NCBI GenBank assembly: GCA_002282555.1
Contig: NCJR01000029.1
Span: 1-15,312 of the forward strand
Reading direction: 5' to 3'
Length of the DNA: 15,312 bases
From: Rhodobacterales bacterium 34-62-10
GTDB taxonomy: Bacteria > Pseudomonadota > Alphaproteobacteria > Rhodobacterales > Rhodobacteraceae
The position numbers and the translations under genes were made by a program. The notes under the pieces were generated by a model. The model was given only the letters and a program-made list of their open reading frames with translations, did no database searches and was not told where the DNA came from. Below are positions 186-13,942 of this stretch, piece by piece. Each line of letters starts with the position of its first letter. Position 1 is the first letter of the stretch.

Positions 186-229
186 CGCGGCGGGCCGCCT
201 GTTGCCGCCGCCCGTTACAGCCAATTGTC

Positions 230-250
230 ATTCCACCCGAAGGGTGGGAT
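230..250 (+). promoter_or_regulatory. Hairpin just upstream of the arrest-peptide start codon
   Basis: Bases 230-238 pair with 242-250 across a GAA triloop, giving about 9 bp with one G-T wobble. The 3' arm is the only purine-rich, Shine-Dalgarno-like stretch (GGGTGGGA, 242-249) before the ATG at 260. If it folds in RNA it would partly hide the ribosome binding site of that gene, or it could be a remnant terminator of the upstream gene. No T-run follows. Confidence 0.35.
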
Positions 251-259
251 ACTGCGGCA

Positions 260-631
260 ATGAACCCGGCCCGCCTTATCACAGGATTGACCCGACAGGT
301 GCTGGCCGCCTGGACCGTGGTCTTGTCGCTGCTGCTGGTCTGGTCGGTTGGCGCCACCGCGCCGCAGACAGGGTCGGGGCCGTCGGTCCGCAGCGAAGCG
401 ATCAGCCTGTCGGGTTCGCCGGAACTGGCGGCGGTGCAGGTCACGTCAGGCGCAGCGCTGCGCGCGACGGATGACCGCCACAGCGCGGGCCCCGATCCCT
501 TTGTGCCCGAGACCCGGACCGCGCCGGCCTCTGCCGCCACCCCGACCCAGGGCCTGACAGCGCCGGATGCGGGCTTGCGGATCACGCGCGCGCATGGCCC
601 GCACAGCCCAAGGGCACCCCCCGCCGCCTGA
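260..631 (+). CDS. Putative RAPP-type (ApdP-like) translation-arrest peptide, regulator of secDF
   Basis: This 123-residue protein starts at ATG 260; the frame is open further upstream, but this start gives a proper export signal. Residues 1-12 are basic. Residues 14-31 form one hydrophobic helix (VLAAWTVVLSLLLVWSVG). The rest is a low-complexity Ala/Pro/Ser/Thr-rich tail without recognisable enzyme motifs. The last residues are RAPPAA, with Arg118-Ala-Pro-Pro121 encoded at 611-622. ApdA/ApdP-type arrest peptides have an N-terminal targeting segment, a variable middle and a C-terminal RAPP or RAPG stall motif, and are encoded upstream of secDF genes. Here the next gene downstream is secDF. 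In that family nascent-chain export relieves stalling, so weak Sec activity prolongs the stall and raises SecDF synthesis. Family membership is inferred from motif and context; stalling is not shown. It could otherwise be an unrelated small secreted protein. Confidence 0.72.
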   Translation: MNPARLITGLTRQVLAAWTVVLSLLLVWSVGATAPQTGSGPSVRSEAISLSGSPELAAVQVTSGAALRATDDRHSAGPDPFVPETRTAPASAATPTQGLTAPDAGLRITRAHGPHSPRAPPAA

Positions 632-820
632 GGCACGACCGACCCCCTGATGCGGCGCGGGCACAGCTGCGATCCGACACCGTTGCCGCCGCGGACCCTT
701 CCGCGGCCCGGCACGGCGGATCGGCCAGGCCACCGGGCCGCATATCCCCCCTCTGTTGCAGCCGACCCTGCCGGGCCGGGCCCCGCGCCCCGCCACCAGC
801 GTCGGTCCAAGGACATGATC
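632..820 (+). promoter_or_regulatory. GC-rich structured leader of secDF with its ribosome binding site
   Basis: This 189-nt spacer separates the arrest-peptide stop from the secDF start. It holds a 7-bp hairpin (688-694 with 701-707, loop ACCCTT). A perfect 7-bp long-range complementarity joins GACCGAC at 637-643 to GTCGGTC at 801-807. The first arm begins 5 nt after the stop codon, in the downstream footprint of a ribosome stalled at Arg-Ala-Pro-Pro. The second arm ends one base before the secDF Shine-Dalgarno (AAGGA, 809-813). Melting of this stem by a stalled ribosome would free the initiation region. The base pairing is visible; the mechanism is inferred. Confidence 0.5.
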
Positions 821-3451
821 ATGCCGCATACTGTCATCTGGAAACGCCTCCTGATCTGGAGCGTTTGCCTTTTCGGGCTTGTCTTCGCCCTTCCCAACGC
901 CTTCTACCCGCAGGTCGAGCGGTATAACGATGCCCTTGCCGTGCAGACCGAAGCCGGCAGCCTGCCGCCCGCGCAGGCCCCCGATCTGGAGCTCTGGCCC
1001 GCATGGTTACCCTCCGGGCTGGTCAACCTTGGGCTTGACCTGCGCGGCGGCGCGCATCTTCTGGCCGAGGTGCAGGTCGAGGATGTCCATGCTGCGCGCA
1101 TGGATGCGTTCTGGCCGCAGATCCGCGATGCGCTGCGCGATCAACGTGACGCGGTCGGCACCATAAAGCGGCAGGATGCGGCCCCCGGCGAATTGCGCAT
1201 CGCCCTGTCGGATCCCGCCGGGCACGCGGCGGCAATCGCCGCGGTGCAGGCGCTGGCCTCGCCCGTGTCGTCGCTGACCGGTGCCGGACAGACCGACATC
1301 GAGGTGCGCATCGCTGGCGATGTGCTGATCGTGACCCTGTCCGAGGCGGAACGTGCCGCATCGGATCAGCGCACGCTGCAACAAAGCCTCGAGATCATCC
1401 GCCGCCGCGTCGATGAGGTGGGCACGCGCGAACCCACCATCCAGCGTCAGGGCGAGAACCGGATCCTGATCCAGGTGCCGGGGATCGGATCGGCCTCGGA
1501 GTTGAAGGCGCTGATCGGCACCACCGCCCGGCTGGGCTTTCATCCGGTCATCGGGCGCGCCGCCAGTGCCGAGACGGTCGCCGAACCCGGCACGCTGATC
1601 CTGCCCTCGCTGGACGAGGCGGGGGTGTTCTACATCGTCGATCAAAGCCCGGTGGTCAGCGGCGACAACCTTGTCGATGCCCAGCCCGCCTTTGACCAGA
1701 ACAACCGTCCGGCGGTCAATTTCCGCTTTGACCCCACCGGCGCGCGGGCCTTCGGCGATTATACCGCCGCCAATATCGGCAGCCCCTTTGCCATCGTGCT
1801 GGATGATGAGGTGATCAGCGCCCCGGTGATCCAGAGCCATATTCCCGGCGGATCGGGCATCATCACCGGGCAGTTCACGGTCGAGCAAAGCACCGATCTG
1901 GCCGTGCTGCTGCGCGCGGGCGCCCTGCCTGCGGGGATGACATTTCTGGAAGAACGTACCATCGGGCCGGAACTGGGGCAGGACAGCATCGACGCAGGCC
2001 AGCGGGCCGCCGCCATCGGCATGGTGGCGGTGATCGTGTTCATGGTCGCCTGTTACGGCACATTCGGCGTGATGGCGGTCGTGGCGCTGGGGATCAACAT
2101 GACCCTGCTGATGGCGGCGCTGTCGCTGATGGGGGCGACCCTGACCCTGCCGGGGATTGCGGGGATCGTGCTGACCATGGGCATGGCGGTGGATGCCAAT
2201 GTCCTGATCTTCGAGCGGATCCGCGAGGAGTTGCGCCAGGACCGCCCCGCCGGGCGCGCCATCACGCTGGGCTTCGAGAAGGCGCTGTCCGCGATCATGG
2301 ACAGCAACCTGACCGGGCTTCTGACCGCGCTGATCATGTTCGCCATCGGATCGGGCGCGGTGCGCGGCTTTGCCGTGACGCTGGGTCTGGGCATCCTGAC
2401 CTCGATGTTCACGGCCGTCTATGTGACGCGGCTGATCATCGAGACATGGATGCGCTGGCGCAAACCGGCGCGGATCACCCTCAAGGGCTGGATCAAGCTG
2501 ACGCCGGACAAGACCACGATCGACTTCTTCCGCGCGCAATGGGCGACCTTCGGCGTGTCGGTCCTTGCGGTCGTGGCCTCGCTGGTGCTGGTGGCGACGA
2601 TGGGGCTGAACTTCGGGATCGACTTCAAGGGCGGCACCACCTTCCGCACGGAATCGGTGCAGCAGGTCGATCTGGGGGCGTATCGCGCGGCGCTGTCGGC
2701 CCTGCAACTGGGCGATGTGGCGATCTCCGAGGTGTTCGATCCCGCCTTCCGCGCCGATCAGCATGTGGCGATGATCCGTATTCAGGCGCAGGACGGGGTC
2801 GAGGCGATCTCGGCCGAGACCATCGCGCAGGTGCAGGCGGCGCTGCGGGCGGTCGATCCGGCCATTGCCTTCACCGCGGTGGATTCGGTCGGCCCCAAAG
2901 TGTCGTCCGAGCTGATCTGGCTGGCGCTGGCGGCGGTGGGCGCGGGGGCCTTCGGCATCCTCGCCTATGTCTGGATGCGGTTCGAATGGCAGTTCGCGGT
3001 GGGCACCGTGGCGGCGCTGGCGCATGACGTGATCGTCACCATGGGCGTCTTTGCGCTGTTCCAGCTGCGCTTCGATCTGACCATCGTGGCGGCCCTGCTG
3101 ACGATCCTGGGCTATTCGGTCAATGACACGGTGGTGATCTTTGACCGGCTGCGCGAGAATCTGGCGAAATATAAAACCATGCCGCTGCGCGATCTGATGA
3201 ACCTGTCGGCGAATGAAACGCTGAGCCGGACCCTGATGACGGCGGTGACCACGCTGATCGCCCTGCTGGTGCTGCTGGTGTTCGGCGGCGACGTGATCCG
3301 CGGCTTTGTCTTTGCCATGGTCTTTGGCGTGATCATCGGCACATGGTCCACGCTCTATGTCGCCAAGAACATCGTCCTGTTCATGGGCCTGGACCGCAGC
3401 GACAAACCCAAACGCGCCCTCGACCACGAGTTCGCCAATATCGACGCCTGA
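821..3451 (+). CDS. secDF: Protein translocase subunit SecDF (fused SecD-SecF)
   Basis: This 876-residue inner-membrane protein is SecD and SecF in one chain. It uses the proton-motive force to help SecYEG pull exported proteins across the membrane. The SecD half has a first membrane helix near residues 5-22, the LGLDLRGG motif at 70-77, a large periplasmic P1 region, and a membrane block with VDANVLIFERIREE from Val457. The SecF half repeats the pattern, with NFGIDFKGG at 597-605 and the NDTVVIFDRLREN segment from Asn768. The conserved acidic residues of both halves (Asp458, Asp769) are present. I chose ATG 821 because AAGGA at 809-813 sits 7 nt upstream; an in-frame ATG at 815 is too close. 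The frame is open back to 650, but that stretch is leader. Many relatives have separate yajC-secD-secF genes. Here no yajC is visible, and an arrest-peptide gene takes the upstream place. Confidence 0.96.
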   Translation: MPHTVIWKRLLIWSVCLFGLVFALPNAFYPQVERYNDALAVQTEAGSLPPAQAPDLELWPAWLPSGLVNLGLDLRGGAHLLAEVQVEDVHAARMDAFWPQIRDALRDQRDAVGTIKRQDAAPGELRIALSDPAGHAAAIAAVQALASPVSSLTGAGQTDIEVRIAGDVLIVTLSEAERAASDQRTLQQSLEIIRRRVDEVGTREPTIQRQGENRILIQVPGIGSASELKALIGTTARLGFHPVIGRAASAETVAEPGTLILPSLDEAGVFYIVDQSPVVSGDNLVDAQPAFDQNNRPAVNFRFDPTGARAFGDYTAANIGSPFAIVLDDEVISAPVIQSHIPGGSGIITGQFTVEQSTDLAVLLRAGALPAGMTFLEERTIGPELGQDSIDAGQRAAAIGMVAVIVFMVACYGTFGVMAVVALGINMTLLMAALSLMGATLTLPGIAGIVLTMGMAVDANVLIFERIREELRQDRPAGRAITLGFEKALSAIMDSNLTGLLTALIMFAIGSGAVRGFAVTLGLGILTSMFTAVYVTRLIIETWMRWRKPARITLKGWIKLTPDKTTIDFFRAQWATFGVSVLAVVASLVLVATMGLNFGIDFKGGTTFRTESVQQVDLGAYRAALSALQLGDVAISEVFDPAFRADQHVAMIRIQAQDGVEAISAETIAQVQAALRAVDPAIAFTAVDSVGPKVSSELIWLALAAVGAGAFGILAYVWMRFEWQFAVGTVAALAHDVIVTMGVFALFQLRFDLTIVAALLTILGYSVNDTVVIFDRLRENLAKYKTMPLRDLMNLSANETLSRTLMTAVTTLIALLVLLVFGGDVIRGFVFAMVFGVIIGTWSTLYVAKNIVLFMGLDRSDKPKRALDHEFANIDA

Positions 3452-3495: not shown

Positions 3496-3568
3496 CAGTC
3501 CGATATCTCTCGGGACAGTCACAGCCCGGGCCCCTCTGACGATGCTCAACCATTGTGATGTCGGACTG
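3496..3568 (+). promoter_or_regulatory. Long stem-loop in the leader of the TerC-family gene
   Basis: CAGTCCGATATC (3496-3507) is complementary to GATGTCGGACTG (3557-3568): 12 bp with one G-T wobble, enclosing 49 nt. The enclosed segment contains the palindrome GCCCGGGC. It lies 90 nt before the TTG start of the TerC-family gene. Genes of this family in other bacteria are often controlled by the yybP-ykoY manganese riboswitch, but I cannot match that motif here. The structure could also be an operator or part of a separate leader RNA. Confidence 0.4.
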
Positions 3569-3657
3569 CCACCTATGCGCCTGTGATTTGCTTGGTTCGG
3601 ATACTTTTCCGACCGGGCACGTTCAGGGCGTCAACCAACACACATGAGGGTCCTGCA

Positions 3658-4671
3658 TTGGAAATCCTGTTACTGCTCTTTTTAGGCAAGCCGCTTTGGA
3701 TGTGGCTTGTCTTCCTCTTGATCGTCGTGGCGCTTCTGGCCTTTGACCTTGGCGTTCTGCACAAGGACGACCACGAGATCGGCGTTGCCGAAAGCCTCAA
3801 GCTGTCGGCGATGTATATCACGCTGGGTCTTTGCTTTTCGGGCTTCATCTGGTGGCAGATGGATGCCACCGCCACAGCGCAATACCTGACCGCCTTTGTC
3901 GTGGAAAAGACGCTGGCGATGGACAATATCTTCGTCATCGCGCTGATCTTCGGCTTTTTCGCGATCCCGCGCGAATATCAGCACCGGGTTCTCTTCTGGG
4001 GTATTCTGGGTGTGATCGTGCTGCGCGGCATCATGATCGGCCTTGGGGCCACGATCGTGGATCAGTATCACTGGGTTCTGTATATCTTCGCCGCTTTCCT
4101 GATCTTCACCGGCATCAAGATGCTGTTTGTTGCCGACAAGGAGCACAAGATCGAGGAGAACGGCCTGCTGCGTTTCCTCAAGCGGCGCATGCATGTGACC
4201 GAGGAACTGCACGGCCACAGCTTTTTCGTGCGCAAGCCACATCCCGAAACGGGGCGCATGGTGCGTTACGCGACGCCGCTGTTTCTGGCGCTGATCATGA
4301 TCGAAATCGCGGATCTGGTCTTTGCCGTCGATTCCGTGCCGGCCGTGTTCACCATCACGACCGATCCCTATATCGTCTACACCTCGAACATCTTTGCCAT
4401 CCTTGGTCTGCGCGCGCTCTATTTCGCGCTGGCCGCGATCCTGCACCGCTTTGCCTATCTGAAATACGCGCTGTCGATCCTGCTGGTGTTCATCGGTTCC
4501 AAGATCTTCATCGCCGATCTGATGGGATGGGAGAAGTTCCCGCCCGCATGGTCGCTGGGCATCACCTTCGCCATTCTGGGGGCCGGTGTCGGGTTCTCGC
4601 TCTGGAAGACGGTCACACCCAAGGGTGATCCGGTGGCGGTCACCGTGACCGACAGCCCGCCGCGCATCTGA
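3658..4671 (+). CDS. TerC family membrane protein (Alx-like metal exporter)
   Basis: This 337-residue polytopic membrane protein, a usual length for the family, has eight or more hydrophobic helices. Family hallmarks are the early FDLGVLHK segment with Asp30, EKTLAMDNIFV at 83-93 with Asp89, and the signature EIADLVFAVDSVPAV at 216-230 with Asp219 and Asp225. These membrane-embedded acidic residues are typical of TerC/Alx proteins, which are linked to manganese efflux and metallation of exported proteins. I chose TTG 3658 because GAGGG at 3646-3650 lies 7 nt upstream and the protein then begins MEILLLLFLGKPLW, as in relatives. An in-frame GTG at 3583 would add 25 unlikely residues. It has its own leader and a strong terminator, so it is probably monocistronic. 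Confidence 0.92.
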   Translation: MEILLLLFLGKPLWMWLVFLLIVVALLAFDLGVLHKDDHEIGVAESLKLSAMYITLGLCFSGFIWWQMDATATAQYLTAFVVEKTLAMDNIFVIALIFGFFAIPREYQHRVLFWGILGVIVLRGIMIGLGATIVDQYHWVLYIFAAFLIFTGIKMLFVADKEHKIEENGLLRFLKRRMHVTEELHGHSFFVRKPHPETGRMVRYATPLFLALIMIEIADLVFAVDSVPAVFTITTDPYIVYTSNIFAILGLRALYFALAAILHRFAYLKYALSILLVFIGSKIFIADLMGWEKFPPAWSLGITFAILGAGVGFSLWKTVTPKGDPVAVTVTDSPPRI

Positions 4672-6193: not shown

Positions 6194-6316
6194 TGATGCA
6201 GAAAAATGCATCATTTGGTTTCTTTGATGTTCTAATCTGCATCGCGCTTGAGCTCCCATGCCGCGTGATGTAGAAAAGCACATCAAGAATCGTGTTTGAT
6301 GCAGAAAAGAACATCT
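6194..6316 (+). promoter_or_regulatory. Array of four HipB-type operators
   Basis: Four 20-bp sites share the form TGATG-N10-CATCA. O1 is 6194-6213 (TGATGCAGAAAAATGCATCA, 7-bp perfect arms). O2 is 6225-6244 and matches best when read on the minus strand. O3 is 6266-6285 (TGATGTAGAAAAGCACATCA). O4 is 6297-6316 (TGATGCAGAAAAGAACATCT). Centres lie 31, 41 and 31 bp apart, near 3, 4 and 3 helical turns, so all four would face the same side of the helix. They directly precede hipB. In E. coli, HipB also binds four operators upstream of hipBA, with a different sequence (TATCC-N8-GGATA). HipB as the binder is inferred. Confidence 0.82.
6248..6276 (+). promoter_or_regulatory. Candidate hipBA promoter
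   Basis: TTGAGC (6248-6253) and TAGAAA (6271-6276) are separated by 17 bp. The -10 lies inside operator O3 and the -35 just right of O2, so a bound repressor would block polymerase. Initiation near 6283 would leave a leader of about 37 nt before ATG 6320. A perfect TATAAT at 6316-6321 overlaps the hipB start codon and has no good -35, so it is a less likely alternative. Confidence 0.45.
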
Positions 6317-6319
6317 ATA

Positions 6320-6913
6320 ATGAACTACGCTACGCAAGCTATCGCCGCTAGCCTCCGGGAGGCCCGAACCGCGAAGGGGATGAGCCAGCGCGATCTGAGT
6401 GCCCTTGTAGGTGTCCCGCAGGCTCAGATTTCGCGCATCGAGGCGGGGACCGTCGATCCGCGCGTCACGAGCCTCATTGCTATAGCGAATGCACTCGATC
6501 TGGAACTGACCCTCGTTCCACGGAAGGCCGTCCCGGCCGTGAAGTCCATCGTGCGCCAGTCCGGCGGGCAGGCGGACCCAACGCGCGGCCCGTCGCAGAA
6601 GGAGATCACCCGCATCGCGGAAACTCTGAGCAGGCTGCAGGTGGCGATGCCGAACCTTGATGGGGTCATGCGTCTGCAGAAGACCTTTGCTGACCTTCAG
6701 CGCTTTCAGCTCCCCACGATTGAACCTGAAACCCTCAGAGCCCTGCGCAAGTCGCTGGAGCGCATCGAGGTGCCGAGCTTCCAGATAGAGGCTCTTACGC
6801 GGAGCCAGGATGCGATGCAGAAGCTGCGCAACCAGTTGGCGCACCAACCGTTTGTTCCGTCGCAGGACGCGAGCCCAAGGCCAGCCTATTCGCTGGACGA
6901 AGACGATGCCTGA
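6320..6913 (+). CDS. hipB: HipB-like antitoxin, XRE-family DNA-binding protein
   Basis: The protein has 197 residues. Residues about 7-65 are a helix-turn-helix of the XRE/Cro type: LREARTAKGMSQRDLSALVG, then VPQAQISRIEAG and VDPRVTSLIAIANALDLEL. It should repress its own promoter through the four operators just upstream and neutralise HipA. Residues 95-197 form a long, mostly helical extension rich in Leu, Arg and Gln, ending acidic (SLDEDDA). Classical HipB is only about 90 residues, so the extension is unusual. ATG 6320 fits the normal XRE N-terminus; in-frame starts at 6296 and 6299 would lie inside operator O4. No strong Shine-Dalgarno is visible (AGAAAAGA at 6303-6310). The 3' end overlaps hipA by 8 nt, which indicates translational coupling. 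Confidence 0.88.
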   Translation: MNYATQAIAASLREARTAKGMSQRDLSALVGVPQAQISRIEAGTVDPRVTSLIAIANALDLELTLVPRKAVPAVKSIVRQSGGQADPTRGPSQKEITRIAETLSRLQVAMPNLDGVMRLQKTFADLQRFQLPTIEPETLRALRKSLERIEVPSFQIEALTRSQDAMQKLRNQLAHQPFVPSQDASPRPAYSLDEDDA

Positions 6914-8138
6914 TGTCTCGGTCCTCAACGTCCTGCTTCATGGCCATAAGATTGGGACCCTGACCTATCTGGGCGGGGAGAGGACCGTCTTTGCCTTTAC
7001 TGACGACTACATCGCCAACCCGCAGCGGCAGACCCTGAGCCTGAGTTTCAAGGACCAGAGCGGCGATCTGATCACTGACCATCGGCCATATAAAATCAAA
7101 CTGTTACCGTTCTTTTCTAATCTTCTTCCTGAAGGTCATCTGCGCAGATATCTGGCCGAGAGGGCCGATATCCACCCCGACCGTGAGTTCTTCCTAATGT
7201 GGGTGCTGGGGCGTGATCTGCCCGGCGCGCTTGTCGTCGAGCCGGCGGATGGAGACGCATGGCCACCGGTGACGGACGAGGACCTTGACGCGGCGGAGCC
7301 GGTCGGCGCGCATGACGACGTCTTACGGTTCTCGCTGGCCGGTGTGCAGCTCAAGTTCTCAGCTGTCAGCGACAAGGCTGGCGGCCTGACCATCCCCGCC
7401 AGCGGGGTCGGCGGCGACTGGATCGTCAAGCTGCCGTCCCAGGAGTATCGCGGCGTCCCCGAGAACGAATTCTCGATGATGACCCTTGCCCGCATGATCG
7501 GCATCGCCGTCCCGGCTGTCGACCTGATTGACGTGACGCGGATCGGCAATCTTCCAGCAGGGGTCGACAGGCTCGGCGACAAGGCCTTCATCATCGAACG
7601 GTTCGATCGCACACAAGAGAAGGCTGCGGTCCATATCGAGGATTTCGCGCAGGTCTTTGGGGTCTTCGCCGAGGACAAGTACAAACGCGCAAGCGCAGCG
7701 AACATCGCCCGCGTCATTGCGACGGAGTCGGAGGTCACCGACACCGCCGAGTTCATCCGGCGGCTGACCTTCACGGCGCTGATCGGTAATGGTGACATGC
7801 ATCTCAAGAACTGGTCGTTGATCTACCCGAATGGCCACCATGCCCGCTTGGCGCCGGCCTATGACTTCGTGTCGACGATTCCCTACATCCCGGGAGACCG
7901 GGCGGCGCTGAACTTCAGCCGCACGAAGGATTTCGAAGGCTTTACGCTGGACGAGCTGGAGCACCTCTCGGCAAAAGCAGCGCTGCCGACAGCCCTTGTT
8001 CTTGCCACGGCGCGCGAAACCGTCGCTCTCTTTCTCGAGAAATGGGCGTCCGAAAAGCATCATCTGCCCATGCACCAAGAAGTCGTCACGGCGATCGATG
8101 CACACCTGCGACGCATGCCCATCGTGACGGCGGGATGA
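6906..8138 (+). CDS. hipA: HipA family serine/threonine kinase toxin
   Basis: This 410-residue kinase toxin begins at ATG 6906, overlapping the hipB stop by 8 nt. The N-terminal subdomain (about 1-100) includes LNVLLHGHKIGTLTYLGG and the LLPFFSNLLPEG motif. The HipA core begins with FSLAGVQLKFS at 142-152, a hallmark at the nucleotide-binding loop. Next come DWIVKLPS with the catalytic lysine candidate and ENEFSMMTLA. The catalytic loop is GNGDMHLKN at 294-302 with Asp297, and the metal-binding motif is YDFVST with Asp320. All expected kinase motifs are present, so the toxin looks intact. E. coli HipA phosphorylates glutamyl-tRNA synthetase and stops translation; other family members have other targets, and this one cannot be told from sequence. 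Use of ATG 6906 is supported by homology to MPDVSVLNVLLHG-type N-termini. Confidence 0.94.
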   Translation: MPDVSVLNVLLHGHKIGTLTYLGGERTVFAFTDDYIANPQRQTLSLSFKDQSGDLITDHRPYKIKLLPFFSNLLPEGHLRRYLAERADIHPDREFFLMWVLGRDLPGALVVEPADGDAWPPVTDEDLDAAEPVGAHDDVLRFSLAGVQLKFSAVSDKAGGLTIPASGVGGDWIVKLPSQEYRGVPENEFSMMTLARMIGIAVPAVDLIDVTRIGNLPAGVDRLGDKAFIIERFDRTQEKAAVHIEDFAQVFGVFAEDKYKRASAANIARVIATESEVTDTAEFIRRLTFTALIGNGDMHLKNWSLIYPNGHHARLAPAYDFVSTIPYIPGDRAALNFSRTKDFEGFTLDELEHLSAKAALPTALVLATARETVALFLEKWASEKHHLPMHQEVVTAIDAHLRRMPIVTAG

Positions 8139-8186: not shown

Positions 8187-9490
8187 CTAGGCCGGCTCTG
8201 CAGCCGGCAACATCCCGGCAAACAGCTTCTTCAGCGCATCGACATGCGATCCCGAGGGACCGGTCATGACGAGCGTCGCGACTTGCAGGGTCTCGTCGGC
8301 GCCTTCACGTGCAATGGCGTAGCGGGTGCAAATCGGTTCGGGCGAGAGATCGCCGTGATGGGGGTAGAGCAACATGACGTCCCGGCAGCCATACAGTTGG
8401 CTAAGGCCATCAACTGATACACGTCAGCTTGGCTGATCCCCTGTTTGGGGTCGTCGATGCGAGGGGCCATCCGCTTCCACTTGGTGTCGACGACGAGGAC
8501 GGCTTGATCCGCGTGTCGGATGATGAGGTCCGGCTTGGTCCGAAACCGCCCCGTATCGGCTTCGAACAGGCAGTCCCGATGGCCGCCCTGTGCTGAAACC
8601 CGGTATCCGCTTCCGGCCAGAGCGCGGGTGACCAGTCTGGCGACGTATTGCTCGAACAGGGCATTCATCTCGAACAAAAGCGCATGACCATCCATAGCCC
8701 CCGCGCTGGTCTGCTGGTGCCGATCGCCGAGAAGAAGACGCGCGAAGGAAAGGAGCTCGCGCCACCGCTGATTGGTCCTATCCAGAGTGATCTGGTCCCA
8801 TCGCAGCGCTGGGACGGGAACCTCGGTCACATCCGCATAGGCGAAGCCCAGCTCGCGTAGGATACGCTGATTGTCGGGGGCCTGGGCCACGCGCTGCAAA
8901 CGGCTGACGGCGGCGCGCATCACCTGGTTGAGCGCGATGTCGGAGGACAGCTCGTCGTACCGACAGGCAAGCCGCTGCGGCGCAACCGCATGGCGGGAAA
9001 ACTGTCGGGTGACGTCGAGCCTGCCGCGCAGGGCGGGGAGGTCGTCTGCATGGTCCACATAGCGGCGCGGCAGACCCATCCGCACCGCTTCCATCAGGCG
9101 GGCGCAAAACAGGCGGATCAACAGTTCCAGAATAGTGTCCTTCTGCCATCCGAGCTGCGCCATCGATCCTGCATCGATCCGCAGATCGTGAACCACCGCC
9201 AGCATGTGGATGAGACGGCGACGAAGGGTTTCGTCAGAAGCGTCGTGCTCTCCAAGACCTTCGATCTTGGGGAGGATCTCCAGCTGACATCCCGGCGCGG
9301 CGATCACGCCGACCACGCCGCGGGCCCGCAGGCCTTTGCGGCCGTGTTCGAGCACGCCTTCGCCGCCTCGGCCCGCGAAACTGGAACGCGCCGCGACGGC
9401 GGCAATCCGATCAGCCTCGGCGGTCGGGATGGTCGTGTCGTCATCCCCGTAACCGATGCGCTGCCATTCGCGGAGCGTGCGGCGGATCAT
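8187..9490 (-). pseudogene. mcrC: McrC nuclease subunit, frameshifted near the 3' end
   Basis: McrC is the nuclease partner of the McrB GTPase. The start is ATG 9490, overlapping the mcrB stop as ATGA (9490-9487). The 5' frame gives an N-terminal beta-rich region, then a PD-(D/E)xK nuclease: TKPDLIIR with Asp321, VVDTKWK with Asp335 and Lys337, and GISQADVYQLMA up to residue 362. Near 8399-8405 the conserved sequence moves to the -1 frame. It resumes as QLYGCRDVMLLYPHHGDL and ends at 8187, for a reconstructed length of 434. The uninterrupted 5' frame instead runs to 8264 with an unrelated 44-residue tail (408 total). One missing base, for example a C in GCC(C)AACTG, explains this. Catalytic residues lie upstream of the lesion, so partial activity is possible. 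A sequencing error is also possible. Confidence 0.85.
8191..8208 (-). terminator. Hairpin at the end of mcrC
   Basis: GCCGGCT (8191-8197) pairs with AGCCGGC (8202-8208) over a CTGC loop, covering the last McrC codons. hipA and mcrC converge here with 48 bp between their ends. There is no T-run on either side, so terminator function is uncertain. Confidence 0.25.
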
Positions 9491-12294
9491 GAGCCGAGAA
9501 GCCGCGCGTAATCGAAGCCGTCGTCGCGCACGTCCCACCGGAAGCGCGGCATCGCCTCACCATTGTCGAGCCCCGGTGGCGCCTTCAGGACCGACCTGTT
9601 CAGAAAGCCCCCCTTGATCGGCCTGTCATGCGTTTCCAGATCGCCGAGTACCGCGGCGATCTTGCCCCAGTCCTCGAAGAAGTACTCGGCCAGCAGCGGG
9701 ATCACCTTGTGCCGCATCACCGCGTCGACATCCGCGCGGGTGTTGCAGCCGGTGAAATAGGCATGACCGATCTGGTGATCGCGATCGTAGAGATACTCGA
9801 TGCGTTCATTGATGATCGTCAGAAGGTTCGGCAGATCGATGCCCGTGCGGGTCGCGGCCTTCTTGAGGACGGCCGGATCGGGCATCATTTCCCGGAATGT
9901 GAACCGCCGCCGCAGTGCCGTATCGAGCAGAGCGATGGAGCGGTCTGCCGTGTTCATCGTGCCGACGATATGCAGGTTCGACGGAACACCGAACTCATCC
10001 CCCGAGTAAGGCAGGCGCACCTTGAGCTGGTTGGGCTGGCCGAGCCGCTTGTCCGGTTCCAAGAGCGTGATCAGCTCGCCGAACACCTTGGAGATATTGG
10101 CCCGGTTGATCTCGTCGATGATCAGGACGAAGGGTTCGGGTTCGGACGGCCCCTCGTTTTGCTGGCTGTTCATGTAGCGCTCAAGGGCCGGGACGTTGAG
10201 CTCGGCGTCATAGAGGGCGTAGATCGACTTCTGGGAGAACTTCCGGGAATAGATCTCGCCGACAGGCACGCCGTCCCGATCGATCCAGAGCCAGCGGACG
10301 GCGCGGCGATGGGCATACCCGCCTTCGGGGCGGGGGGCAAACTCGTACCCGCCCGTGAATTCCCCGATGGCTCGAAACAGTCCATTGCCTTTGGACACGA
10401 TGACGATGTCGCCCTTTCGGACCCAGTTCCGGAAGATGAAGGGCATTTGCACCATGCCGGATCTGGCATCCACAGTGCCGTTCTGGCTGCCCTGGGCTTT
10501 GCAGGCTTCGATGATCGCCTCTCGGCTTTCGAACTTGTCGTCCGACCAGTCAATGTCCTCGAAGCCGAGGAGGGCATAGTTGCCCTTGATCGCTTCTTCG
10601 AAGAGATGCGCGTCCTCGGGGTTGTTCGCTTCGCCAATCGACATCTTGAAGACCTGGCGGCCTTCAACACGTGTCGACTCCTCCTCGGAGGAATGCCCAC
10701 GGCTGGTCTCGGCGCGTTTCGCGATGCGCCGGAAGATGCCGGGCACCGTCTCCAGCCGGAAGCCGGCCGAGGATGTGTCCTCGCCATCATCTGCACCGGT
10801 CATGGGCTGTCGGCCCTCGACGAACTCTTCATAGGCCATCGACTGATGGAAGGTGACGAATTCGATCCGACCGGCGGCCAAGAGGCGTTGGTAGGAGGCC
10901 ATCAAAGCGGTGCGGTCATCCGGGACAGATTCGCCGCACAACCGAACGGCCTCCTCAGCGGTGCGGTAGGTCTTTCCGGTACCGGGAGGGCCGTAAAGGA
11001 TGATGTTGTGAGAGGTTGATCCCATGATCGGCACGGCCTTTTCGACGTCTGTTTTCGCGGGTTCCGCGTTTTCCCAAAGCTTTTCCAGCGCCCGCGCTGC
11101 TGCGGGCTTGATCAGAATTCCGGAAGACTGAGGGCTCCAGTCCTGCCCGCTGATCTTGCTCGTCAAGACCGCATGCGGGATGTAGGCATCCTTCCCTGGG
11201 TCCCGTATGTCCTCGAATTCCACATCGATGAAATCCGTGGTCTCACCCGCGGCGGCCTGCTCTTTGTCCCAGTGGAGGTCGGAGTAGGCGGCCTTCGCAA
11301 CCCGTCCCCTTGCGATGATGCCACGGAAATCGTCGCCGGTTCGGATCAGGAAGACCTTGTCGTCAGGCTTTGGCTTCTTCGAACTCGTGCGCCAACGATG
11401 GACTACAGTGCCTCCGGACGCGGTCTGCTGGCGGTCCTGCGCGAAAGTCTCCCAGTCCCAGCGTGACGGATTCCAGCTGATCAGATAGGTCGCGTCGCTG
11501 TCGCGCCAGCGCTGTTCAATGTCCGGCTCATAGAAATCGATCTCCCGGCCGAGCTCGGTCTCGAGCCTGCCGCGCAGGGCAAGAAGATGTGAATCCAGCT
11601 CGGAAATCCGCATCTTCCGGATGTCCTTCCGCGTTGCCACCTCAAAGCCTTCGAGGATCTCGCGCTTGTGCCGCGGGCTCGAAATCCGCTCATAGTGTTC
11701 GGGAAACAGGAGATGCGGAAGGATCTGACGCAGTTGGCGGCCATCGACACTGGGCACCTTGTCCAGGAACGCGCAGAACGCTTCATGGTCCTTGCGCTGT
11801 TGGGCCTGCAGCTCAGGCGGCAACTCCTTCCAGTCACGAACCAGGGCAATCAGGAAGCTCAGCTCCCGCCATCTGTGCGTGTTATAGGCCGTGCCCGCGT
11901 GGCCGATGCCTTCCAGAACCTCCGGGCTCAAGGCCGCAACGTCCTCGGGAAGCGGGGTGCCCGACCAGGACCAGATCTCTCTGACTCTCTGCGCTTTGGT
12001 CGCCGCGCCCATGTCGCTCGGAAAGTTGAACAGGATCCAGTGCAGCTCAGCCATCAGCTGGCGGCTTTCCGGTGTGCCTGAGGACATCTGCTGTTCGAGC
12101 TTCAAGTAATAGCTGTCCGTGCCTTCATCGGGATTCTGGACAAAGGTGCGGTCCAGCTCCGAGAGGTTTTCGGCCGTCCAAAGACGAAGGTCGGGCTGAA
12201 GGATAGAGCCATCCTGCAGCAAGCAGCGGTCGGCGAAGTCCGAGACCACAGGATACAATGCGGCGCTTTTTTCGTGCGGGTTGAATCTCGCCAT
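9487..12294 (-). CDS. mcrB: McrB-type AAA+ GTPase of a modification-dependent restriction system
   Basis: The protein has 935 residues, about twice E. coli McrB (459). Residues 1-265 are mainly helical, with the conserved HLLFPEHYERISSPRHKREI segment seen in large McrB relatives. Residues 268-395 look like an EVE/PUA-type modified-base reader: TYLISWNPSRWDW, then KVFLIRTGDDFRGIIARGRV. The AAA+ motor begins with Walker A GPPGTGKT at 435-442. Between Walker A and B, residues about 548-700 hold a second PUA/EVE-like insertion (GDIVIVSKGNGLFRAIGEFTG). Walker B is VLIIDEINRA with Asp727-Glu728, and the McrB signature MNTADRS is at 780-786. The family uses GTP to translocate and activate McrC. The start at ATG 12294 has AGGA (12306-12303) 8 nt upstream. 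It lies 85 bp after fic on the same strand and overlaps mcrC by ATGA, so co-transcription is likely. Confidence 0.93.
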   Translation of the reverse strand: MARFNPHEKSAALYPVVSDFADRCLLQDGSILQPDLRLWTAENLSELDRTFVQNPDEGTDSYYLKLEQQMSSGTPESRQLMAELHWILFNFPSDMGAATKAQRVREIWSWSGTPLPEDVAALSPEVLEGIGHAGTAYNTHRWRELSFLIALVRDWKELPPELQAQQRKDHEAFCAFLDKVPSVDGRQLRQILPHLLFPEHYERISSPRHKREILEGFEVATRKDIRKMRISELDSHLLALRGRLETELGREIDFYEPDIEQRWRDSDATYLISWNPSRWDWETFAQDRQQTASGGTVVHRWRTSSKKPKPDDKVFLIRTGDDFRGIIARGRVAKAAYSDLHWDKEQAAAGETTDFIDVEFEDIRDPGKDAYIPHAVLTSKISGQDWSPQSSGILIKPAAARALEKLWENAEPAKTDVEKAVPIMGSTSHNIILYGPPGTGKTYRTAEEAVRLCGESVPDDRTALMASYQRLLAAGRIEFVTFHQSMAYEEFVEGRQPMTGADDGEDTSSAGFRLETVPGIFRRIAKRAETSRGHSSEEESTRVEGRQVFKMSIGEANNPEDAHLFEEAIKGNYALLGFEDIDWSDDKFESREAIIEACKAQGSQNGTVDARSGMVQMPFIFRNWVRKGDIVIVSKGNGLFRAIGEFTGGYEFAPRPEGGYAHRRAVRWLWIDRDGVPVGEIYSRKFSQKSIYALYDAELNVPALERYMNSQQNEGPSEPEPFVLIIDEINRANISKVFGELITLLEPDKRLGQPNQLKVRLPYSGDEFGVPSNLHIVGTMNTADRSIALLDTALRRRFTFREMMPDPAVLKKAATRTGIDLPNLLTIINERIEYLYDRDHQIGHAYFTGCNTRADVDAVMRHKVIPLLAEYFFEDWGKIAAVLGDLETHDRPIKGGFLNRSVLKAPPGLDNGEAMPRFRWDVRDDGFDYARLLGS

Positions 12295-12379: not shown

Positions 12380-13942
12380 TCAATTCGAGAACGCCGTCGT
12401 CACGATCTCCTCCAGATCGGCGATCTCGGCGTCGGTGAGTTTGACGAAGGGGTCGCGGTCTCGCCTGCGCTTCGGGAACCGCCCGTCATTCTGGGTGACG
12501 AACAGGATCACCTGTCGTGCCAGAGCGTCCGGCATCTCGATGCGGTTCATGATGCCGCGCATCGCTGCATCGTGACGCTTGAGATAGGTGATCTCGCGCG
12601 GGAGATCCTCCTCGATGGTCTTGCGCACGCAGTCATAGAGGAATTCGGCCTCCGCCGTGCAGTCGTAGAAGCGGTAGAGATCGGCCGTGTCGTTCAGCAC
12701 CTCGACATTGCCGGTGGGCGTTGCACGCCACGTGATGTGCTCCATCAGCGGGCCGGAGTGGCCTTGCAGAACCGCCCGGTAATCGTCGATGCGGTCGAGC
12801 ATCACGGACGAGACCGGGAAGACCATCCCGGGTGGGGTGAACTTCCGCTCGGCGAGAACGTGATGGATCAGGCAGCGGTGCAGGCGGCCATTCCCGTCTG
12901 CCAGCGGATGGATGTAGACGAAGCCGAAGGCGATGATGGCCGCCTGCAGGACGGGATCGACCTCTTCGGCATCTGTCAGCCGCAGCCGGTTGTTGCAGGC
13001 GTTCAGCGCCGTCATGAGCTGGGGAACATCCTCGGGCCGCGCGCCGATGAACTCCGGCAAGGGGTCGTTGCTGTGGTCCCGTTCGCCCAGAAAGACCCCG
13101 TCGTCGCGATAGCCGATCGGGGTCAGGCGATCGTCGCCGATCAGGATCCGGTGCAGGCGGTAGATCTCGGTCTGATTGAGGGGGCGCTTGCCGGCCTCGA
13201 GCACGGCGCGTCCCCAGCGCTCCAGGCGGTTGACGGGCGGGCGCTCGCCTTCGATCTCGAAGCTTGCGCGGCTGTCGGCCAGCAGCATGAAGCTCGCCGC
13301 GCGCGCCACGACATGGCCGCCCGTCTTGCCGATGGTCTCCTTGGCCCGAGCGGCCAGATCGAGCGCGATCAACGCCTCGAGCTTCTCGGTGCGCCGGATC
13401 ACCGGGCAGAGGGCGCCGGTGCCGAGCAGGTTGTCCCGGACACGGTGGCGCTGCGAGAAGCGCTCCTTGCCGGTGAAGTATTGGGTGGGGTCCAGAGCCG
13501 GGACCGCCGTGACGGTTGGCGCATCCTCGAGATCGAGCCTGCGTCCTGTCAGGGTCTCGAAGAAGAACCACAGCCGCCGGGAGAAGGCGCCGGTCGGTGT
13601 GGCGCGGACGATCGCTTCGATGTCCTGTTGCGGAACGGCGTCAAAAACACGCTTGAGGATCAGGAGGTCGATGCTCTCGTGCCGCAGGGCAAAGCCGAGA
13701 TGGCCCTCCAGCGTCGCCTCGGGCAGGTATCGCTTGTCATAGACCTGCCAGATCCCATCCGCGCGGACATTGCCGCGCACATGGCGCTCCGAAATGCAGG
13801 TGGGGTTGCGCACCGGCGCAGGGATGCCGAACGCGGACACCAGCGCGGCCCACCCCGCGAGGTGGGCGCCCTCGGGAAGGGGCTCATCCTGAAAGAAGGG
13901 GGGCGTCAGGCTGTCGGGTCTCATGCGTCGAAAAGGCCTCAT
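12380..13942 (-). CDS. fic: Fic family AMP-transferase
   Basis: This 520-residue Fic protein has the catalytic motif HPLADGNGRLHR at 345-356 (His345, Asp349, Asn351, Arg353), in the sequence FGFVYIHPLADGNGR. Fic enzymes usually transfer AMP from ATP to a hydroxyl on a target protein. An inhibitory motif (S/T)xxxE(G/N) is built in upstream at Ser227-FEI-Glu231-Gly232. This suggests an autoinhibited enzyme (class II-like) that needs no separate antitoxin. The N-terminal 170 residues and the C-terminal 90 residues are not recognised; the C-terminus could be a winged helix (ARQVILFVTQNDGRFPK). The start may be ATG 13942 or ATG 13924; neither has a good Shine-Dalgarno. The promoter region carries an unusual repeat array. 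mcrB follows on the same strand, so the gene may lead a fic-mcrB-mcrC operon. Confidence 0.92.
   Translation of the reverse strand: MRPFRRMRPDSLTPPFFQDEPLPEGAHLAGWAALVSAFGIPAPVRNPTCISERHVRGNVRADGIWQVYDKRYLPEATLEGHLGFALRHESIDLLILKRVFDAVPQQDIEAIVRATPTGAFSRRLWFFFETLTGRRLDLEDAPTVTAVPALDPTQYFTGKERFSQRHRVRDNLLGTGALCPVIRRTEKLEALIALDLAARAKETIGKTGGHVVARAASFMLLADSRASFEIEGERPPVNRLERWGRAVLEAGKRPLNQTEIYRLHRILIGDDRLTPIGYRDDGVFLGERDHSNDPLPEFIGARPEDVPQLMTALNACNNRLRLTDAEEVDPVLQAAIIAFGFVYIHPLADGNGRLHRCLIHHVLAERKFTPPGMVFPVSSVMLDRIDDYRAVLQGHSGPLMEHITWRATPTGNVEVLNDTADLYRFYDCTAEAEFLYDCVRKTIEEDLPREITYLKRHDAAMRGIMNRIEMPDALARQVILFVTQNDGRFPKRRRDRDPFVKLTDAEIADLEEIVTTAFSN

Follow-up and report, generated by a model that had tools for sequence, protein, structure and literature searches.

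The open reading frame at 260-631 of the window, i.e. of the whole stretch of 15,312 nucleotides that was analysed from Rhodobacterales bacterium 34-62-10 (contig NCJR01000029.1), is very probably an ApdP-type arrest leader of the secondary secDF gene that follows it, in which ribosome stalling would result in more secDF. Judged from its sequence and by the definition in PMC10987492 this upstream open reading frame (uORF) is an ApdP, and the class is already known, not new; here and below, statements on published systems refer to the passages covered of each paper. If the reading is right, the peptide would let the cell sense failing export and respond by producing more of a spare export motor. 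What the locus adds is a clean orthologous clade that lends itself to comparing arrest motif, spacer length and SecDF partner.

The uORF and its SecDF partner

The uORF is the first complete gene of the window and its stop lies 189 nt ahead of the secDF start at 821. The features of the region are:

225-253, plus strand: promoter-like element TTGTCA-17-GATACT, the second hexamer being preceded by TG; 6 nt separate its end from the uORF ATG
260-631, plus strand: uORF of 123 codons from ATG to TGA, assigned as an ApdP-type arrest peptide from conservation and a chance control
299-349, plus strand: hydrophobic signal or signal-anchor segment, codons 14-30, from hydropathy
452-499, plus strand: conserved patch, codons 65-80, in the window AALRATDDRHSAGPDP, from a BLOSUM62 profile
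500-595, plus strand: hypervariable stretch of near-constant length, codons 81-112, from the alignment
611-622, plus strand: RAPP codons, with P120 at 617-619 and P121 at 620-622; stall site predicted by analogy (PMC10987492)
761-806, plus strand: predicted hairpin, from folding; 2 nt lie between its 3' arm and the secDF Shine-Dalgarno
809-813, plus strand: secDF Shine-Dalgarno AAGGA, from the sequence
821-3451, plus strand: fused secDF, secondary SecDF2 with no yajC upstream, from SecD_SecF_C, SecDF_P1_head and the SecD tree

The peptide ends in ...G-P-H-S-P-R118-A-P-P121-A-A-stop. Its hydrophobicity over 17 residues peaks at residues 14-30 (mean Kyte-Doolittle 2.32), which two basic residues precede; by hydropathy these residues supply the N-terminal localisation signal of the ApdP definition. 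Searches of Pfam and NCBIfam with the peptide gave no real match, the best Pfam E being 7.7. An earlier note on this DNA had described a hydrophobic N-terminal segment, a RAPP followed only by AA and the stop, and the absence of an enzymatic domain, all of which is borne out by the 123-residue frame and the family searches. It had also placed the codons of P120 and P121 correctly and named secDF as the next gene, where a fused SecDF is indeed found, with Pfam matches to SecD_SecF_C (3.7e-85) and SecDF_P1_head (9.1e-41).

At one of its contig ends, the assembly of the window (2.66 Mb, 72% complete) includes a portion of a split secD-secF pair as well (secF 57% identical), and the primary secD-secF pair is present in the six other genomes of the window's genus. 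As a primary pair is also present, the SecDF of the window is a spare copy. The uORF thus has the position that the ApdP definition gives it, directly upstream of a secondary secDF. The host is alphaproteobacterial, as the definition also has it, according to the closest records (Rhodobacteraceae/Roseovarius) and the SecD tree.

Further downstream in the window there are other recognisable elements. A cis-regulatory terC RNA at 3518-3573 (Rfam RF03067, 48.5 bits, cut-off 39.9) precedes a TerC gene at 3661-4671. At 6296-8138 the genes of an HTH protein and a HipA-like kinase follow each other in overlapping frames and form a HipBA-type toxin-antitoxin pair. On the minus strand, a McrC-like protein (PF10117) and a McrB-type AAA ATPase make up a McrBC-like restriction system at 8264-12294, adjoined at 12380-13942 by the gene of a Fic family protein that matches the candidate defence model PDC-S24 (5.5e-183).

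Conservation of the leader

The main set consisted of 110 loci, namely the window, 80 secDF loci and 29 more of the same family (149 genomes searched). A leader with R[A/G]PP inside its last 11 residues is found at all 22 of the yajC-less SecDF2-type loci, in 21 as RAPP and in one as RGPP, and in 17 of them exactly two residues follow the motif. At the yajC-linked loci of this set the number of arrest leaders adjoining secDF is 0 out of 85; in 82 of these yajC lies within 420 nt, and in three (L038, L041, L043) it lies 305-529 nt upstream. L046, L060 and L067 are uninformative, as they are at contig ends. In L094, which is yajC-linked, an RGPP frame lies 363 nt ahead of secDF; we count it as chance because yajC sits between the frame and secDF.

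The association can be compared with what chance produces in the same DNA. Six-frame ORFs of at least 60 codons from 113 loci number 6,837. In 16 of them the stop comes exactly two residues after a RAPP, and each of these is on the same strand as a secDF, 98-225 nt upstream of it. The remaining 33 RAPPs within the last 40 residues of these ORFs are scattered, with 0-3 per position. A protein search of 5.8 billion sequences gave 12 matches, including the window's own, and 12 of 12 end in RAPP plus two residues. The association of leader and secDF exceeds chance.

Across the 22 loci, each of the four third positions of the RAPP codons shows all four bases; first and second positions do not vary except for the choice between AGR and CGN for Arg and for one Gly. 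With the variation of these codons otherwise confined to third positions, it is the peptide that is under selection. For ten near-relative pairs, pN/pS is 0.47-0.76 for the uORF versus 0.17-0.21 for SecD, so that the peptide is under loose constraint outside the fixed RAPP. The expectation of the earlier note that orthologous loci upstream of secDF would keep the motif while much else drifts is thus confirmed at the 22 loci. The likeness to the ApdA/ApdP class that it had proposed also holds, with a secondary, yajC-less secDF downstream, a hydrophobic segment at the N-terminus, a conserved C-terminal RAPP and a drifting remainder.

Some individual loci deserve a comment. In L022 the SecDF2 frame is broken after 224 codons by a frameshift, either of the gene or of the assembly, and the RAPP leader is intact. 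The secDF genes of L054 (titled Nocardioides marinus) and L021 (Exiguobacterium profundum) fall among Rhodobacteraceae, and both records are probably mislabelled or contaminated. In two loci of Tropicimonas type (L052:2700-2900 and L054:2700-2880) there are two motifs 16 residues apart near the end of the leader, RAPP...RGPP and RAPP...RAPP, a possible double arrest site; L112, the third member of this branch, has a single RAPP-like motif.

Anatomy of the peptide

The conservation profile was calculated from 19 of the 22 leaders, leaving out L052, L054 and L112. In the numbering of the window, four zones can be distinguished in the alignment: a hydrophobic zone (17-32), the patch (65-80), a variable zone (81-112) and the tail (113-123). 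In the patch, the mean BLOSUM62 is 1.57 and 1.07 in two blocks of eight residues, compared with -0.69 in the shuffled null. The block means of residues 81-112, from -0.11 to -0.68, are near this null. RAPP is the sole stretch that is identical in all nearest relatives. The middle of the protein, which had been called generic in the earlier note, is therefore so at residues 81-112, where the drift is near-random, but not at residues 65-80. A conserved segment at this place is unreported for such leaders.

The length is nearly fixed. The spacing from the column of R73 to R118 is equal in 16 of 19 leaders, one residue longer in two and two residues longer in one. Each of the six leaders in the window's subgroup has 123 residues without any internal gap, at an identity of 0.23 over residues 76-112, and the intergenic gaps are 184-225 nt. 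Six of eight leaders in the second subgroup have 122 residues, and the others 121 and 117; as the intergenic gaps vary little too in the six compared there (167-174 nt), common descent may explain part of this constancy. Exceptions to the length rule are P0009, which has four internal residues fewer, P0010, a short entry, and P0012, with a longer N-terminus. Further, the hydrophobic segment is 84-88 residues from R118 in 16 of the 20 loci with a trusted start and 91-93 residues in the other four, the starts having been inferred from hydropathy; for L006 the ATG giving 123 was chosen among three in-frame candidates, and for L008 the automatic choice was overridden by hand.

The ribosome tunnel holds some 30-40 residues. 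At the stall, residues 81-112 would therefore fill the tunnel, and the patch would be at its mouth or just outside, where it could be gripped by Sec components or by the ribosome surface. In the published view the spacer of Sec-monitoring peptides is free to vary in length (PMC10987492, section 12), so that a near-fixed length was not to be expected.

Transcript start and the region before secDF

Two promoter-like sites are found within 1-900, compared with 0.1 expected, and one of them is the element that ends next to the uORF start. A TTG is present at -35 or -36 from the uORF ATG in 19 of the 22 loci, versus 25 of 1276 other positions. Transcription usually starts 6-8 nt past the -10 box. 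With the element 6 nt from the ATG, the mRNA of the uORF would therefore be leaderless or nearly so, provided that the start is a usual one, and the uORF could be translated from such a leaderless or near-leaderless mRNA.

At the other end of the intergenic region, a hairpin directly before the secDF Shine-Dalgarno is predicted for all 15 inner-clade loci, for 1 of 7 other SecDF2 loci and for 15 of 85 control loci. Its mean z is -1.72 in the 15 inner-clade loci versus -0.26 in the controls (Mann-Whitney p 7e-5); individually, p is below 0.05 in only 5 of the 15, and the hairpin of the window is not significant alone (p 0.07). Pair changes were read from the predicted fold of each locus itself and are biased towards pairing. 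We regard the hairpin as an anatomical feature and not as the mechanism, because it is too far (more than 100 nt) downstream of a stalled ribosome to be opened by it directly.

A switch of the SecM type, in which the end of the leader pairs with the secDF Shine-Dalgarno, is unsupported by the folding tests. The modelled openness of the Shine-Dalgarno with and without a stalled ribosome shows no consistent gain over the 22 loci, and the change in the window is small (0.57 to 0.64). Duplexes of the tail with its own Shine-Dalgarno have a mean of -12.9 kcal/mol versus -11.7 kcal/mol for swapped ones, an advantage confined to one subgroup of eight, where the own Shine-Dalgarno ranks 0 to 7 among the 22 for each tail. 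When set against shuffles, this subgroup has a mean z of -0.80 with no locus at p<0.05, and the window's subgroup has +0.19. In L052 and L054, 8 bases within the last leader codons are complementary to the secDF start region, and the duplexes of these loci are no better than shuffles. The same is true for a special fold of the whole leader region (z -0.63 and -0.98), which we reject.

From a predicted stall to secDF

In the arrest-leader reading, the N-terminal hydrophobic segment would send the nascent chain to SecYEG. With R118-A-P120 on the P-site tRNA and prolyl-tRNA in the A site, formation of the peptide bond would stop. When export is fast, pulling on the chain would free the ribosome; when SecDF/Sec capacity is short, the stall would persist and expression of the downstream secDF would go up.

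The two halves of this scheme are not equally firm. In published toeprints the third residue of the motif is in the P site (PMC10987492), and cryo-EM explains the RAPP block (PMC10951233); by analogy with these relatives, a stall at the RAPP of the uORF, and its position, may be expected. RAPP and RGPP function in several contexts (PMC12992588). RAPP alone is not sufficient, and of the RAPP-bearing proteins of E. coli and B. subtilis that were tested, most failed to stall efficiently (PMC7897499, PMC10987492). In the passages covered of PMC10987492, induction of secDF by a uORF of this kind was shown for uDF_RQH_Enterobacterales and not for ApdP. The step from the stall to a higher secDF expression is the weakest one, because the model of pairing between leader end and Shine-Dalgarno did not stand out in the folding tests; a less direct unmasking structure, or relief of Rho termination, is a possible link.

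Control could also be transcriptional altogether, with a ribosome stalled near the stop altering how far the C-rich 190-nt leader is exposed to Rho. In tnaC, ribosome stalling alters the Rho exposure of the leader in this way. The leaders here are long (93-225 nt in the 22 loci), 20 of 22 have more C than G, an intrinsic terminator was not found in 1-900, and the pairing of tail and Shine-Dalgarno is unsupported. In addition, with the stop two codons past RAPP in 17 of 22, the region of the stop would lie under a stalled ribosome. On the other hand, a rut site is not recognisable from sequence alone and the C-richness may merely mirror the composition of the genome, and we consider this explanation unlikely, though worth keeping in view.

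The remaining explanations deny that there is an arrest peptide at all. That the uORF codes for an ordinary small exported protein which ends in RAPP by chance is very improbable: a patch such as 65-80 might well be conserved in a protein with a function of its own, but here RAPP is the only stretch identical in the nearest relatives, the adjacent 32 residues are near-random and the link to yajC-less secDF is complete. It is hardly conceivable that the uORF is untranslated and that DNA or RNA is what is conserved. The region is rich in GC and has several open frames, which would suit this idea, but the RAPP codons vary at third positions with Arg as both AGR and CGN, and the length of the peptide changes codon-wise while that of the intergenic region changes freely (184-225 nt in the window's subgroup). 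An ApdP-type leader of the secondary secDF is the best explanation.

Origin of the leader

The first SecD tree contained 106 of the 110 rows, leaving out L022 (frameshifted SecDF), L038, L046 and L067. In it, a single branch separates the leader-bearing loci from the rest (21 rows, SH-aLRT 99). A class-wide search of 337 genomes gave a match in 122; among the best 30 loci of this search, nine have an R[A/G]PP uORF without yajC, 20 have yajC without such a uORF and one has neither. The second tree, a quick search on 84 SecD sequences with 30 primary loci hand-picked for spread and L176 (partial) and L194 dropped, places the SecDF2 of the window inside the primary SecD group of Rhodobacteraceae, with a support of 100 for the joining branch. 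The other arrest-leader SecDFs are in two other places, giving three changes of state in all. A single clade for the 34 arrest-leader rows is rejected (p-AU 2.5e-106), also with the 32 rows that remain without the most distant L186 and L187 (p-AU 1.4e-74).

In these AU tests, in which the S. medicae ApdP locus was not included, the SecDF partners of ApdP do not form one clade; they belong to at least two, probably three, separate lines. From the trees, "ApdP" probably arose several times, and the lineage of the window seems to have evolved its arrest leader separately. The leaders are too diverged for alignment across groups. Either the leader arose repeatedly beside separately made copies of SecDF, or leaders passed from one copy to another. 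The result bears on a question of the 2024 survey, whose authors favoured a repeated origin of RAPP peptides but could not prove it (PMC10987492).

Among seven genomes of the window's genus, SecDF2 is present in three (the window's own, G151 and G152), each time with a RAPP leader. A third SecDF, 42-44% identical, is present in five (G149, G150, G152, G153 and G154; loci L123-L127), with leaders that end in HGPPLV, QGPPLV, RGPPAV, RGPPAV and HGPPAV. G152 has both, i.e. SecDF2 with its RAPP leader and the third SecDF with a leader of its own. One genome with two ApdP-SecDF sets, that of Nitratireductor soli, appears in the 2024 survey (PMC10987492).

All this may be brought together in one picture, which we offer as a tentative and rather doubtful possibility: a duplicated SecDF without yajC, an independent RAPP sensor built of handle, tether and trigger, a leaderless mRNA, and two sensors (RAPP and HGPP) in one strain of the genus, each for a different spare SecDF. 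In Rhodobacteraceae, a duplicate of the primary SecDF would have lost its yajC neighbour and gained a RAPP force sensor apart from the other alphaproteobacterial lines. The handle would be the patch 65-80, some 40-55 residues from the P site, the tether would be residues 81-112, free in sequence and fixed in length inside the tunnel, and RAPP would be the trigger.

Comparison with known systems

VemP and SecM are nascent chains that monitor Sec upstream of secDF2 and secA, respectively. The leader described here resembles them in the monitoring of Sec by a nascent chain, as proposed for it. However, their arrest sequences are different, and unmasking of the Shine-Dalgarno, which was shown for them, is unsupported by folding here. 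A spare SecDF beside a primary one is also found in the published cases of ApdP and VemP (PMC7897499, PMC10987492).

ApdA of Actinobacteria shares RAPP and the position upstream of secDF, but it belongs to another phylum, has a cleavable signal and was published as probably of independent origin (PMC7897499, PMC10951233). The RQH family (uDF_RQH) also consists of secDF uORFs with a RAPP-like C-terminus, and RGPP, HGPP and QGPP occur among the relatives studied here as well; its authors, however, keep the name for groups other than ApdP and claim no sequence homology (PMC10987492).

The closest system is ApdP. It was reported in 2021 (PMC7897499), and the 2024 survey counts 293 of its uORFs in Alphaproteobacteria, with Rhodobacterales among the named orders (PMC10987492). 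Like ApdP, our uORF precedes a secondary secDF in Alphaproteobacteria, has a signal-anchor-like N-terminus and carries a C-terminal RAPP (PMC7897499, PMC10987492). In contrast, two residues follow RAPP here and six in S. medicae (RAPP 131-134 of 140), and the five residues before it are GPHSP here, of PEP/PEA types in the relatives and QSKCI in S. medicae. The leader also differs by a SecDF partner on a different branch (AU test), by its near-fixed length and by the conserved patch 65-80.
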